Below, piece after piece: positions 1 to 6,328 of a DNA stretch of 35,587 bases; the stretch's first letter is position 1; each line of letters starts with the position of its first letter. Made by a program: the position numbers and the translations under genes. Source of the stretch: a virus; the IMG/VR virus record IMGVR_UViG_3300046524_000608, positions 1 to 35,587 of that record; one strand, written 5' to 3'. The notes beneath the pieces were generated by a model that worked only from the letters and a program-made list of their open reading frames with translations, was not told the DNA's origin and made no database searches.

Positions 1-1065
1 ATGAAGAGACTTTCGTACCGTAAAAAGGTCTACTCAGACCGTCGATCATTGCAGGTACCAAGCCATGCTCGACGTGCGGCACGCAAAGCTAAACAGCTTC
101 GTAAGCCTAGGAGAATTCGTCTTGATCGGCCTGTCTTTATTAGGGCTCCTGAAACTTTTCATCTAACGGATCTTCTTTGGCGCGCACGGTTGTTTAGGCT
201 GTTTGATGAGGTTGACTTAGCGCTAAGTCAAGGGCGCAAGGTAAGTTTAAGCTTCAAAAATACTGAAAAGATGTACCCATGCGGCACCCTCGTTTTCATG
301 GCAAGGCTTGACTTGTGGTTGGCGCAACATCCAGGGATGATAAGTTGCGACTACCCAGAAGATGAGGTGGTTGAGCAGCTACTCCAGCACTTCTCTGTAC
401 TTAGCAAGCTTGGTCTAAAGAGCCGCAAGACGATCAATAGTGAAAGAGTTGCGTATTGGCACTTTTATTCAGGCGCAAAAGCTGATCTGTCAGGTTTTAA
501 AGATGTCACCTTGTCTATTATTAAGGGCATTGAGCACCCGCAGAAAGAGCTGTTTGCGGACTGCTTGAATGAAGCCGTAGTGAACACTGTACATCACGCT
601 TACAAGAACTACACTGAAGTCGAGGTGCCGTCAGAGCTGCGACGCTGGTGGATACTTTCGCAGTTCCGTGGCGATCGTATGTATGTAGCGATTTATGATG
701 TCGGTGAGGGCATTCCAGGAACCTTAAGACGTAAGCCCGAGTGGCTTGAATATTTGAAGCATCGACACTATAACGATGACAGGACGATTGAGTCAGCGAT
801 CATCAGTCAACGCTCGAGCACGTTACAACCTGAACGAGGGCAGGGCCTTCCCGAGATGCTAGAATTCTCTCAAAGCCTCGAAGGTGGCGGCCTGTCTATC
901 GTCAGTTCTAAGGGTGCCTTTGAATACAACGCGGATGTCGAGACAATGCGCAGGCGTAAATATTCGCTGCCCCTAAAAGGCACGCTTGTCCAGTGGGAAA
1001 TACCGTTCCGCAAGGAGCAAGAAAATGGAAACCATGAACTTATCAATAGCCAAACAGTTCAGTGA
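1..1065 (+). CDS. STAS-like/GHKL ATPase protein, cassette gene 1
   Basis: A 354-residue cytosolic protein. A basic N-terminus (about 1-45) precedes a region at about 46-130 whose beta-strand, 'CGTLVFM', helix pattern looks like a STAS-type fold. A Bergerat (GHKL) ATP-binding domain follows at about 160-335, with the N box E191/N195, the G1 box D233-V-G-E-G and the G2 box R279-G-Q-G-L. This is the arrangement of SpoIIAB/RsbW-type and histidine-kinase ATPases. No phospho-acceptor histidine domain or receiver was seen. The gene overlaps the next one by 41 bases, so the two are probably co-translated. It is much more AT-rich than the phage core. The true start is uncertain because the window opens on its ATG. 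Biological function is unknown; a partner-switch role with the downstream DUF4325 protein is inference. Confidence 0.85.
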   Translation: MKRLSYRKKVYSDRRSLQVPSHARRAARKAKQLRKPRRIRLDRPVFIRAPETFHLTDLLWRARLFRLFDEVDLALSQGRKVSLSFKNTEKMYPCGTLVFMARLDLWLAQHPGMISCDYPEDEVVEQLLQHFSVLSKLGLKSRKTINSERVAYWHFYSGAKADLSGFKDVTLSIIKGIEHPQKELFADCLNEAVVNTVHHAYKNYTEVEVPSELRRWWILSQFRGDRMYVAIYDVGEGIPGTLRRKPEWLEYLKHRHYNDDRTIESAIISQRSSTLQPERGQGLPEMLEFSQSLEGGGLSIVSSKGAFEYNADVETMRRRKYSLPLKGTLVQWEIPFRKEQENGNHELINSQTVQ

Positions 1066-1357
1066 GACACCTGCAGGACGATATGTCCAGGATGGACCAG
1101 CGTCGGGGCAAAGGTTTCGTGACGAATTTTTGGTGCCAGCATTGCAGTCGGGCAAAAGAGTTTCTGTCGACCTGGATGGAGCAGTTGGCTTCGGTTCATC
1201 GTTTCTAGAAGAGGCGTTTGGCGGTTTGGTCCGTGTCGCAGGGTTTAGGGCTCCCGATCTTCACTCCCGCTTGACTATTCTGTCTGGACTGAAGACCTAT
1301 CGTGATCGCGTCTGGCGATACATCGACGAGGCCCAGGCCCGCGCTCCTGCTCGCTGA
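1025..1357 (+). CDS. DUF4325 (STAS-like) protein, cassette gene 2
   Basis: A 110-residue protein matching the DUF4325 STAS-like family: an N-terminal G-R-Y element (18-20), the R-F-R-D-E-F helix (30-35), the strand V-S-V-D-L-D (46-51) and the signature S58-S59-F60 followed by L-E-E-A-F-G. I chose the ATG at 1025 because AAGGAG lies at 1012-1017, seven bases upstream; an in-frame start at 986 lacks this signal. The gene begins inside the GHKL gene. GHKL plus STAS pairs form kinase/antagonist switches in SpoIIAB-SpoIIAA and RsbW-RsbV. Whether S58 or S59 is phosphorylated here is only a guess. The family has no established biochemical activity that I can cite. Confidence 0.82.
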   Translation: METMNLSIAKQFSETPAGRYVQDGPASGQRFRDEFLVPALQSGKRVSVDLDGAVGFGSSFLEEAFGGLVRVAGFRAPDLHSRLTILSGLKTYRDRVWRYIDEAQARAPAR

Positions 1358-1362
1358 CTGTC

Positions 1363-1938
1363 TTGGATATCGGGCAGCTCATCAAGGACTATGGTCCAAC
1401 CGTCGCGTGGATCATTGCAATCACTGGATGGGCGATTGGTAATTCTCAAGCAAACAATCGGGAAAAACGGAAGGAGTTCCGTGCCGAGATTACTGCTATC
1501 GAGGCGTCCCTCAAGAGTCTTCTTGAAAAGGTAGAAAAATACCTTCGCGAGGCGGCGCGCAACGATGCGGCAAGGAAACTTGAGCTCGAAATCGTTGTTT
1601 TGTTTCGCTCGCTAGACTTGATGCACGAGCGTTTGGATAAGCGACAAAGTGGCGGTGAACTTGGGCTCTATATAGATGTTGTAAAGCGCTATCGAGAAGA
1701 GCTTTACGATCTGGCTACTGGGTCCTATTTCGAGACTGCAGACCGTATTCCGGACGAGGAACTTCATCCTCGCATTCAGGCCCTTCATACAAAGGCCTAT
1801 CTCCTCATCGAGTCCTTGCATGACCTGTTCTTGGCGAAGTTTGATGATGTTCGGACGGAGGCCGTGGTTGGCCCGCAACACGGTGTGGGGCTCATGTCTT
1901 ATCTCAATGGCTTGATGACCTCGGGCCGCCGCCGGTAA
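1363..1938 (+). CDS. Membrane-anchored helical protein, cassette gene 3
   Basis: A 191-residue protein I do not recognise. A single hydrophobic segment (about 12-28, rich in W, I and A) is followed by a charged, mostly helical domain with coiled-coil-like stretches (about 34-75), predicted cytoplasmic. The only workable start is TTG at 1363, five bases after the previous stop and without a strong ribosome site, so translation probably depends on coupling. Its end runs 40 bases past the integrase stop on the other strand, a convergent overlap. Position and AT-rich composition suggest it belongs with the GHKL/DUF4325 pair as a membrane effector or anchor; this is inference. Confidence 0.68.
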   Translation: MDIGQLIKDYGPTVAWIIAITGWAIGNSQANNREKRKEFRAEITAIEASLKSLLEKVEKYLREAARNDAARKLELEIVVLFRSLDLMHERLDKRQSGGELGLYIDVVKRYREELYDLATGSYFETADRIPDEELHPRIQALHTKAYLLIESLHDLFLAKFDDVRTEAVVGPQHGVGLMSYLNGLMTSGRRR

Positions 1939-3739: not shown

Positions 3740-4387
3740 ATGTTTTCGAAAATCAGGGAGTGGCTTCGTCCGTGGTACAACATCTACGCGGTGATGGTGC
3801 TGAGCGCAGCAGCTGGTCTTGGCACATACGAAGCTGTGCCTTGGGCAAAGCTCGACTCCACCGGATGGGGCACGGTTGGTACATGGGCTGGTTCGATAGG
3901 TACAGTTGCCACCCTGATCGGCACAATCGTCCTGGCTACTGCGGACAGAAGGGCGGCGCGAAGGCAAGCACATGACCGGGCCGTCCTTGCTGCCGCGGCA
4001 TTGACATCTCGACTGAAGATCATTGCAGATTCGCTGCAAATTGCCGTGGAACACTTCCTCGATGACTCGTCCAGAAAGGAGCCGGTTGATTACAGAATGT
4101 ACGGCAAAGTTCTCGAAGGCCACGGCACTTGGACTGACGACGAAATTCTGCCGCTTATAGTGCTTCCCAAACACGTTTGTATTCGCCTCGCAGTAATTCG
4201 TGCTGAGATTTTGGAAGTAACTCGAAAGATGCTGAACCTTGCCGATAATTTCGCTTATAGCTGGATTCAAGACACGCTTAACGAAAGGCAGGCGGAAATT
4301 GTGAGCAGCCTGATCAAGTCGCGAGATACCCTTCAGTTCGCCGTTATGGAATGCGAATCCGCTGTCAAAAACGCTGTGCGCTCTTAA
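3740..4387 (+). CDS. Two-helix membrane protein, possible moron
   Basis: A 215-residue protein with two hydrophobic segments (about 13-31 and 47-67) joined by a short loop, followed by a basic stop-transfer stretch (R70-R71, R74-R75) and a cytoplasmic helical domain of about 145 residues. The ATG at 3740 follows GGGAGAA at 3731-3737. It is the only rightward gene between the two leftward operons, diverging from the integration operon and converging on the DUF2786 gene, and is more AT-rich than either. This isolation suggests accessory cargo. I do not recognise the family; membrane-located exclusion of other phages is one untested possibility. Confidence 0.72.
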   Translation: MFSKIREWLRPWYNIYAVMVLSAAAGLGTYEAVPWAKLDSTGWGTVGTWAGSIGTVATLIGTIVLATADRRAARRQAHDRAVLAAAALTSRLKIIADSLQIAVEHFLDDSSRKEPVDYRMYGKVLEGHGTWTDDEILPLIVLPKHVCIRLAVIRAEILEVTRKMLNLADNFAYSWIQDTLNERQAEIVSSLIKSRDTLQFAVMECESAVKNAVRS

Positions 4388-6018: not shown

Positions 6019-6171
6019 TCAGCGCGCGCCGGCGACGATGGTCAGGCCGTAAGGCTGGTCGCCCAGCAGCTCGGCGGTCAGCAGGGCGGCGCCGACGCTC
6101 GAGGCGGCGAGGGCGCTGAAGGTGATGCAAGCGGTTGCGGTACGGACGGTGATGAGGAAGGGGCGGCGCAT
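6019..6171 (-). CDS. Small membrane-type peptide, first gene of the early-left operon
   Basis: A 50-residue frame read from the gene strand: ATG at 6171 and TGA at 6019. GGAGAGC lies just upstream of the ATG, a good ribosome site. The product has a basic start (M-R-R-P) and one long hydrophobic stretch, about residues 5-33, rich in A, I, T and L, so it is probably a single-span membrane peptide. It is the first reading frame behind the predicted early-left promoter and is spaced one base from the next gene. Function unknown; a lambda N equivalent is not evident here. Confidence 0.62.
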   Translation of the reverse strand: MRRPFLITVRTATACITFSALAASSVGAALLTAELLGDQPYGLTIVAGAR

Positions 6172-6220
6172 GTGCTCTCCAGTTTGCGGCTCGGCGGGTG
6201 CTGAGCTTGCTTTGGTGGAG

Positions 6221-6243
6221 AAAGTATAGATCAGCTATACTTT
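6221..6243. promoter_or_regulatory. CI operator OL1 (perfect palindrome)
   Basis: AAAGTATAG-ATCAG-CTATACTTT is a perfect inverted repeat with 9-base arms and a 5-base spacer. Its core, GTATAG-N5-CTATAC at 6224-6240, is identical in half-sites to the operator at 8403-8419 beside the cro promoter. This ties the two control regions to one repressor. Confidence 0.85.
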
Positions 6244-6252
6244 AGAAGTAAA
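6223..6252 (-). promoter_or_regulatory. Early-left promoter (pL analogue)
   Basis: On the minus strand, TTTACT (6252-6247) and TATACT (6228-6223) are separated by 18 bases, a fair sigma-70 promoter. It reads toward the six-gene operon starting at 6171. Both elements are overlapped by the two CI operators, so repression in the lysogen is expected. Confidence 0.72.
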
Positions 6253-6264
6253 GGAAAACTATAC
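6248..6264. promoter_or_regulatory. CI operator OL2
   Basis: GTAAAG-GAAAA-CTATAC differs from the consensus GTATAG-N5-CTATAC at one base. It lies 24 bases from OL1, about two helical turns, the same phasing as in the right operator cluster. Confidence 0.7.
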
Positions 6265-6274
6265 AAGAGGGAAC

Positions 6275-6295
6275 AAAAAAACCCGCCGAAGCGGG
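6275..6295 (-). terminator. Intrinsic terminator of the repressor operon
   Basis: Read on the minus strand, CCCGC-TTCG-GCGGG is followed by seven T residues. It lies downstream of the 315-residue gene and just before the early-left promoter, so it separates the repressor operon from the lytic leftward operon. Confidence 0.88.
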
Positions 6296-6328
6296 CAGAG
6301 TAGATCTCGATCCGTCTACAAGTACTTG

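Follow-up and report, generated by a model that had tools for sequence, protein, structure and literature searches.

A three-gene cassette at the edge of a temperate phage

The 35,587-base virus record IMGVR_UViG_3300046524_000608, which in its full length we call the window, belongs to a temperate tailed phage and opens with a cassette of three plus-strand genes, here termed G1, G2 and G3. G1 (the kinase, or K; positions 1–1065) encodes 354 amino acids that are predicted to form a basic N-terminal helix, a STAS-like alpha/beta domain (residues ~44–150) and a GHKL kinase domain (~152–338). G2 (S; 1025–1357, with its ATG at 1025) encodes a STAS-like DUF4325 protein of 110 amino acids with adjacent serines, S58 and S59, at the expected phospho-site, and G3 (1363–1938, TTG start) encodes a predicted membrane-anchored four-helix-bundle protein of 191 amino acids, the presumed effector. 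As the initial annotation had noted, G1 and G2 overlap (by 41 bases) and G3 follows immediately, 5 bases past the G2 stop codon. A tyrosine integrase gene on the minus strand (1899–2948; Phage_integrase 7.7e-10, phrog_1 5.2e-38) is convergent with G3, overlaps its end by 40 bases (the last 13 G3 codons) and marks the slot.

Because the record begins at the G1 ATG, the DNA upstream of G1 lies outside the window; G1 of the closest relative, locus L009 (77% identical), begins at the same residue, and the window G1 may start further upstream than base 1. The GC content of the cassette is 0.49–0.53, compared with 0.60–0.68 across most of the phage, so that the AT-richness first ascribed to the cassette holds against most of the phage but not against the region at 7–8 kb, which is equally AT-rich. 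A tRNA search of the window found none, and the best 20 of at least 60 families of direct repeats included no att-like ends; the record is trimmed at gene ends.

The three genes recur and co-vary as a unit

Across its relatives the cassette is a conserved three-gene unit with intact kinase motifs and conserved serines, and we regard it as virtually certain that the three genes function together. A tblastn search with G1 yielded seeds in 2 of 50,697 phage records and 5 of 72,556 plasmids, and in all seven G1 is followed by a DUF4325-type gene and then by a G3-like open reading frame (ORF), which in Novosphingobium is unannotated. A scan with a G2 motif returned 203 viral contigs; keeping 80 of them gave a set of 89 loci (the window, L002–L009 and L011–L090) that is drawn mainly from virus collections and whose carriage is not comparable with that of VapKSC. 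G1 was found in 86 of these 89 loci; the other three contigs start within G2. Space for a third ORF is available in 88 loci (all but L019), and every one of them has such an ORF behind G2. As the definition of this third ORF was loose (at least 90 amino acids, starting from 40 bases before to 250 bases after the G2 stop), the weight rests on the N-terminal pattern of G3 and on co-variation, and on these two grounds we rejected a chance trio of ORFs. Over 68 loci, pairwise distances correlated at 0.81 for G1 and G2, 0.73 for G2 and G3 and 0.83 for G1 and G3, values reached by none of 2,000 permutations each in a test that takes no account of shared ancestry. In 14 loci the cassette genes correlated with one another at 0.90–0.94 and with the integrase at 0.62–0.69 (likewise 0 of 2,000).

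The initial annotation had named two findings that would tell against a system, namely fixed-order housekeeping genes and a third gene that rarely accompanies the other two; neither was encountered. G1 occurs in 9 of 398 Pseudomonadota genomes (the centre genome counted) and in 2 of 101 relatives of the centre genome (the centre itself counted). A DUF4325 gene adjoins G1 in all nine genome copies, and G3 is present in eight of these nine, all found by G1 alone (seven by profile, G075 by frame reading). A survey of DUF4325 itself identified 31 places in 29 of the 398 genomes, fused and other arrangements among them, including a divergent tenth triad (L127). Separately, an Acinetobacter plasmid (L008, 4040–4531) carries a truncated G1 beside an ISAba14 transposase, with G2 and G3 kept.

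G1 has the features of a SpoIIAB-like kinase

The AlphaFold2 model of G1 (predicted local distance difference test score, pLDDT, 89.4) comprises an N-terminal helix (6–34), an alpha/beta domain to about residue 150 and the GHKL domain. SpoIIAB was the top structural match of the GHKL domain (VIA, ranks 1–5; Z 12.9, root-mean-square deviation 2.7 over 128 residues), followed by CheA and RsbW, and Foldseek placed the response regulator LvrC at the top for G1 (E 1.8e-5, TM 0.3), narrowly before SpoIIAB. E191, N195, D233, G235, R279, G280 and G282 are all present, which confirms the complete Bergerat motifs originally read in gene 1 and gives G1 the GHKL kinase motifs of the SpoIIAB/RsbW type. Among 72 non-redundant relatives, six of these residues are invariant in the 71 that reach the column (71/71), and R279 is kept in 69 of 71. 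Judged by these motifs and the model, G1 has a complete SpoIIAB-like kinase domain. The middle domain is probably STAS-like, on the basis of its secondary structure and its alignment to a VapK-like protein. That alignment, of the G1 profile with the VapK-like kinase of locus L115, spans both domains (hhalign probability 96%, E 4.8e-9, 264 columns). An existing PHROGs family covers G1, with its function unassigned there (phrog_3364, 1.3e-41).

Two further features recur in the family. Tryptophan occupies position 216 in 69 and position 217 in 70 of the 72 non-redundant G1s, and at least 20 residues precede the domain in 52 of the 72, with a median net charge of +13 (lowest −1); the 20 without a basic tail include several cut by contig ends. 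The basic tail suggests contact with nucleic acid. Two copies of G1, in L102 (6242–8206) and L104 (5839–7386), lie in frames that stay open for 655 and 516 codons between stops, far beyond the usual length, and could possibly encode an extra N-terminal domain.

G2 carries conserved serines at a putative phospho-site

G2 matches Pfam DUF4325 (7.7e-15) and no other Pfam family, and the GSSF motif is present, in agreement with the S-S-F signature initially assigned to it; solved VapS matches DUF4325 too (3e-14), and phrog_5816 is the corresponding PHROGs family, function unassigned there (4.2e-16). Because the viral set was fetched with a motif that itself holds serine, the serine invariance seen in that set was discarded and serines were counted solely in the 17 loci found via G1 (one, G103, aligned by eye), where S59 is conserved in 17 of 17 and S58 in 14 of 17. 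By analogy, either residue may be the phospho-site; we take the phospho-position of SpoIIAA to be the serine at the start of helix 2. A search of plasmids with a VapS fragment gave no match.

G3 is a predicted membrane-anchored helical bundle

In the AlphaFold2 model of G3 (pLDDT 89.3; helices 3–61, 68–94, 101–119 and 131–160), one long helix leads into a four-helix bundle. The last ~30 residues are modelled at low confidence, and the last ~20 are absent from the 171-amino-acid homologue in L009. An N-terminal hydrophobic segment is a family trait: with a 15-residue span it was called in 71 of 73 non-redundant G3s and 75 of 256 control ORFs at a cut-off of 1.35, which is lenient and was chosen after the value of the window G3 had been seen, and in 62 of 73 and 52 of 256 at 1.6. 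With a 19-residue span the counts were 59 of 73 compared with 41 of 256 (1.35) and 48 of 73 compared with 32 of 256 (1.6). Control ORFs were started at the first ATG or GTG, and G3 starts were picked differently. Moreover, lysine and arginine are more numerous after the segment than before it in all 73 non-redundant G3s, a positive-inside charge pattern that places the helical bundle in the cytoplasm. The most conserved positions are G22 (60/73) and W23 (63/73) within the segment, R36 (59/71) and T119 (64/72), at the end of helix 3. G3 had no Pfam match above the gathering score, and Foldseek returned nothing at E ≤0.001 in the PDB or among viral models; its VIA matches are within the usual range for helical bundles, and a PDB sequence search gave weak matches headed by syntaxin.

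The cassette is patchy mobile cargo

Among the 67 non-redundant loci in which 1.5 kb was available, 14 have a convergent integrase whose end lies no more than 72 bases from G3; among all loci the count is 22 of 82. Integrases were called by an iterated profile search from the window integrase, which may miss distant ones; Pfam confirms the window integrase, and annotated Escherichia coli loci confirm others. G1s that are 52–57% identical accompany integrases that are 84–93% identical, and the G1 of L022, 57–59% identical to six others, adjoins an integrase just 12–16% identical to theirs. Relatives of the window integrase were found in 30 viral contigs, none of which carries the cassette; nine of these contigs stop at the integrase stop codon and 16 extend at least 645 bases past it. 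In 11 of the 30 the 3′ end of a tRNA-Ser lies 77–153 bases past the integrase, seven oriented as in L009 and four opposite, with the cassette absent, and a whole tRNA-Ser(GGA) gene is present in five contigs (887 bases away in L144). The tRNA ends beside integrases are presumably att sites.

L009, whose G1, G2 and G3 are 77%, 90% and 68% identical to those of the window, shows the corresponding arrangement with the cassette in place. Its tRNA-Ser(GGA) ends at 7869, G1 starts at 8001 (131 bases between) and the integrase comes after G3. L087 has the same order, with a tRNA-His at 886–961, the G1 frame from 1108 and the integrase from 3016. As the cassette in both loci lies between a tRNA on its outer flank and the integrase, we ruled out that these are ordinary host genes flanking a prophage. 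Among eight genome copies, seven have no tRNA, and in L101 a tRNA-Met lies 428 bases before the G1 frame. The cassette is patchy mobile cargo.

Two observations concern neighbouring slots. L009 (7779–11256) looks like a remnant, as the next 6 kb show no obvious phage genes; by ORF reading it holds the integrase, the cassette and one small gene by the tRNA-Ser, and it has apparently retained the cassette. In L139, a phage whose integrase is 90% identical, the integrase-side slot holds an ORF (6050–6695) with the motif HPFINGNGRTAR, which we take to be Fic-like.

Cassette slots in E. coli are shared with defence genes

The L045 cassette occurs in 20 of 5,426 E. coli genomes at at least 99% identity and the L030 cassette in 136 of 5,426 (10 at at least 99%, 126 at 60–80%), with the matches listed covering a quarter to half of the latter. 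In strain 4012 (L170) the L045 cassette lies between the replication endonuclease and portal genes of a P2-like prophage, an interval described in the main text of PMC9122126 as an anti-phage hotspot. Strains 2A and UM146 carry two alleles, 52% identical in G1, between glaH and an integrase. The gene for this type of integrase is present in 410 of the 5,426 genomes, and among 30 matches listed we opened five loci, 96–97% identical. One of these, L176, holds the cassette in the slot; L175 holds AbiLi/AbiLii genes (4.2e-101, 4.9e-29) and L173 a PD-Lambda-5_B methylase (5.8e-124) together with an AAA ATPase, the other part of PD-Lambda-5 not being among the matches listed. The cargo of L173, L174 and L175 is co-directional with the integrase, not convergent, and glaH adjoins L169, L171, L174 and L176. 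Among relatives, therefore, the cassette lies inside prophages in slots of exchanged genes (L009; L087; L169, L171 and L176 compared with L172–L175; L170); the window record itself ends at G1.

The uncharacterised genes of L172 (2265–3453) and L174 (2634–3413) lie on the integrase side that elsewhere holds AbiL, the PD-Lambda-5_B-type methylase or the cassette, and are candidates for further defence systems. Several PADLOC matches near cassette copies were set aside. An RT_UG29/RTasDnaG-like match concerns one protein (L101, 807–2642) and is probably DnaG, as Pfam found DnaG primase in that set; a mad3 match (3.8e-26) concerns one AAA/ABC-type protein (L104, 3131–4945) matched over short stretches; and those to HTH_VI, AriA, RmrA, capH and mad8 were single (4e-8 to 9e-6).

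Relation to known kinase–STAS systems

The closest precedent is the VapKSC/CapKS module, published in 2026 (Chambers et al., EMBO J, June 2026; PMC13373217). According to the main text of that paper, CapK is activated by single-stranded DNA (ssDNA), phosphorylates a serine of CapS and responds to DNA damage, whereas VapS binds and inhibits VapC and an S48E mimic abolishes the inhibition. In the same account, vapKSC protects E. coli about 2 logs against phage Bas42, protection is lost with S48A, F54A or D28A, and VapK F54 and CapK W68 are the aromatic residues at the ssDNA groove. The terms ‘transmembrane’ and ‘DUF4325’ are absent from its main text.

With VapKSC our cassette shares the gene order kinase–STAS protein–effector, a STAS and GHKL kinase without a helix-turn-helix (HTH; a comparison based on the L115 alignment and the G1 model) and a DUF4325 STAS protein with a conserved Ser/Thr and a C-terminal extension past the STAS core. 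It differs in that the third gene, by its model, encodes a membrane-anchored all-helical protein instead of the VapC/PIN nuclease, that G1 has a basic N-terminal stretch in most copies and W216-W217 in nearly all, and that an aromatic ssDNA contact is not evident in G1. G1 and G2 thus resemble, at the level of sequence, the kinase and STAS antitoxin of VapKSC/CapKS, with G3 in the place of the VapC nuclease. CapK–CapS likewise consists of a STAS and GHKL kinase with a STAS protein directly after; however, G1 has no HTH (residues 1–44 are modelled with one helix, 6–34), G2 (110 amino acids, DUF4325 alone in Pfam) lacks a winged helix, and the output is presumably a protein encoded in the operon itself, whereas that of CapKS is promoter control. 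One Pseudomonadota genome in our DUF4325 survey carries a VapKSC-like locus (L115, 867–2669) with a STAS–GHKL kinase, DUF4325 and PIN (5.7e-9), so that both kinds coexist as branches of one module.

The SpoIIAB/SpoIIAA and RsbW/RsbV pairs share with G1 and G2 the kinase fold and N-box as well as a STAS partner with a serine at the start of helix 2 (PMC13373217, main text). They differ in that a sigma factor or PP2C phosphatase is not part of our unit in the annotated loci opened, and in that G1 has an extra STAS-like domain and a membrane partner is added. The partner switch proposed in the initial annotation therefore survives in its components (a SpoIIAB/RsbW-like kinase, a STAS-like partner, a membrane protein and prophage cargo), but as the kinase–STAS module is that of CapKS/VapKSC, the closer analogy is a kinase-released antitoxin and not a sigma-factor switch. 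The P2 hotspot systems, as presented in the main text of PMC9122126, are small exchangeable cassettes between conserved phage genes too, and some pair an enzyme with a transmembrane effector, as proposed for G1–G3; STAS, GHKL and DUF4325 are absent from that main text, and its Table S5B may list the triad unnamed. A table in the 2021 description of Francisella phage KIRK (PMC7924643) lists in a row a 293-amino-acid protein similar to phage AS1, a DUF4325 protein and a transmembrane protein, the triad going unrecognised. With the published module, the PHROGs families and this table, the cassette, at first termed ‘undescribed’, has precedents.

Other features of the window

Pfam and PHROGs identify DnaB-like, large terminase and tape measure genes in the remainder of the phage, which also encodes a CI-like repressor (7588–8346, minus strand) and an O-like replication protein (9465–10547). 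Within the O-like gene, at 9821–9919, lie five 18-base copies of a near-palindromic repeat of the type TAGTCCCAAATCGGGACA, presumably resembling origin iterons as in lambda O. A second tyrosine recombinase (11920–12975; Phage_integrase 1.1e-15, phrog_1 6.2e-44) follows the DnaB-like gene directly and lies well away from the first integrase (1899–2948). A plus-strand ORF of 215 amino acids (3740–4387) amid the minus-strand early genes reads as hydrophobic in its N-terminal part and then helical; neither PADLOC nor PHROGs matched it, no Pfam family exceeded the gathering score, and it is possibly a second cargo gene.

Proposed function and alternatives

We propose, with a probability of roughly 60%, that the cassette is a kinase-gated membrane-effector toxin–antitoxin unit carried by temperate phages as cargo for phage defence. 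In this model G2 would hold membrane-anchored G3 inactive until infection or another stress switches on G1; active G1 would then phosphorylate G2 at S58 or S59, and phospho-G2 would release G3 to act at the inner membrane, so that the cell is arrested or killed and the spread of the attacking phage stops. The steps differ in strength. By analogy with the known kinase–STAS pairs, G1 very probably phosphorylates G2, and there is a good chance that G3 is the output of the unit. That G3 harms the membrane is somewhat favoured, an anti-phage role of the cassette slightly more so, and ssDNA as the trigger of G1 is a tentative idea that falls short of an even chance. We infer G2–G3 binding, G3 toxicity, the membrane as target and phage protection, and the presumed defence role is backed by the position of the cassette in slots occupied elsewhere by AbiL, a PD-Lambda-5_B-type gene or the anti-phage systems of P2.

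Several observations weigh against this proposal. In the window G3 the segment (approximately residues 11–28) is weakly hydrophobic (best 15-residue stretch 1.47, best 19-residue stretch 0.94, against a usual cut-off of 1.6), and the strict 19-residue cut-off does not call the protein membrane-spanning; of the membrane segment and helical domain initially seen in gene 3, the family pattern and the model bear out both, but the window copy is a weak example of the former. G3 has neither a catalytic signature nor an informative fold match, and G103 is a G1–G2 pair without G3. Aligned directly by profile, G2 matches solved VapS weakly (E 0.05), with VapS showing serine at S58 and proline at S59, and the S protein of L115 with a probability of 45% (E 2.2e-4). 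G1 columns 91 and 92, which align to Trp-Phe of the L115 kinase, are aromatic in just 6 of 70 and 11 of 70 copies, their match to the VapK F54/CapK W68 columns being uncertain. Two of the five extra E. coli slots (L172 and L174) hold genes without a defence match; PADLOC had no match for the window G1–G3 or for E. coli L170 and, on nine further G1/G3 copies, gave one marginal 2TM-effector match (0.0074) and nothing more; and the eight genome copies have no convincing defence neighbour among 74 neighbouring ORFs. Finally, the literature searched, chiefly the main texts of open-access papers, contains no study of the triad as a system and no experiment on the cassette.

The alternative that fares best, although we consider it unlikely, reverses the direction of signalling: G3 would be the input, a membrane sensor whose bundle signals to G1, and G2 would end the chain on a host target. 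The closest alignments of the bundle are indeed to an MCP model and to four-helix sensor domains from chemoreceptors and from kinase-linked receptors (Z 13–14), but such values are ordinary for helical bundles, the K–S–output order of VapKSC and CapKS places the output third, and the positive-inside charge puts the bundle in the cytoplasm. Marginally less probable is a module for addiction or stabilisation of prophages and plasmids, for which phage defence would be a side effect or absent. Its anatomy would equal that of a toxin–antitoxin unit, and the plasmid copies in L004–L006 and L008 lie near other toxin–antitoxin-type genes; however, simple addiction needs no kinase input, and the slots are shared with AbiL, with a PD-Lambda-5_B-type gene and with the anti-phage systems of P2.

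A service to its own prophage, in which the cassette would sense damage and adjust induction, excision or the timing of lysis, is improbable. The adjoining integrase in 14 of 67 non-redundant loci, a Cro/CI gene near the cassette in Marinobacter phage AS1 and the response of CapK to DNA damage (PMC13373217, main text) speak for it, whereas the cassette travels with unrelated integrases, on plasmids and at the P2 portal-side hotspot, and occurs in 0 of 30 contigs with relatives of the window integrase. A classical partner switch on a sigma factor or host transcription with G3 incidental would suit a kinase domain closest to SpoIIAB and RsbW, but is very improbable because the annotated loci opened have no sigma factor or phosphatase gene in the recurrent unit and G3 distances track those of G1 about as well as G2 distances do (0.83 and 0.81).

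It is about evenly balanced whether the cassette represents a third output branch of the kinase–STAS immunity module, in which G2 would cage a membrane-perturbing four-helix G3 and G1 would sense through its basic tail and Trp-Trp pair instead of the CapK ssDNA groove. On this reading the branch extends across at least three host phyla, on prophages as well as plasmids, and its slots are those that also accommodate AbiL, PD-Lambda-5_B-type and P2 hotspot systems. Because E. coli prophages carry such cassettes, the idea can be tested in laboratory E. coli. If true, it would mean that the kinase–STAS pair, published as a means of nuclease release and of promoter control, can gate a membrane effector too, giving the module three kinds of output, and it would account for ‘hypothetical’ genes that flank DUF4325 in prophages.

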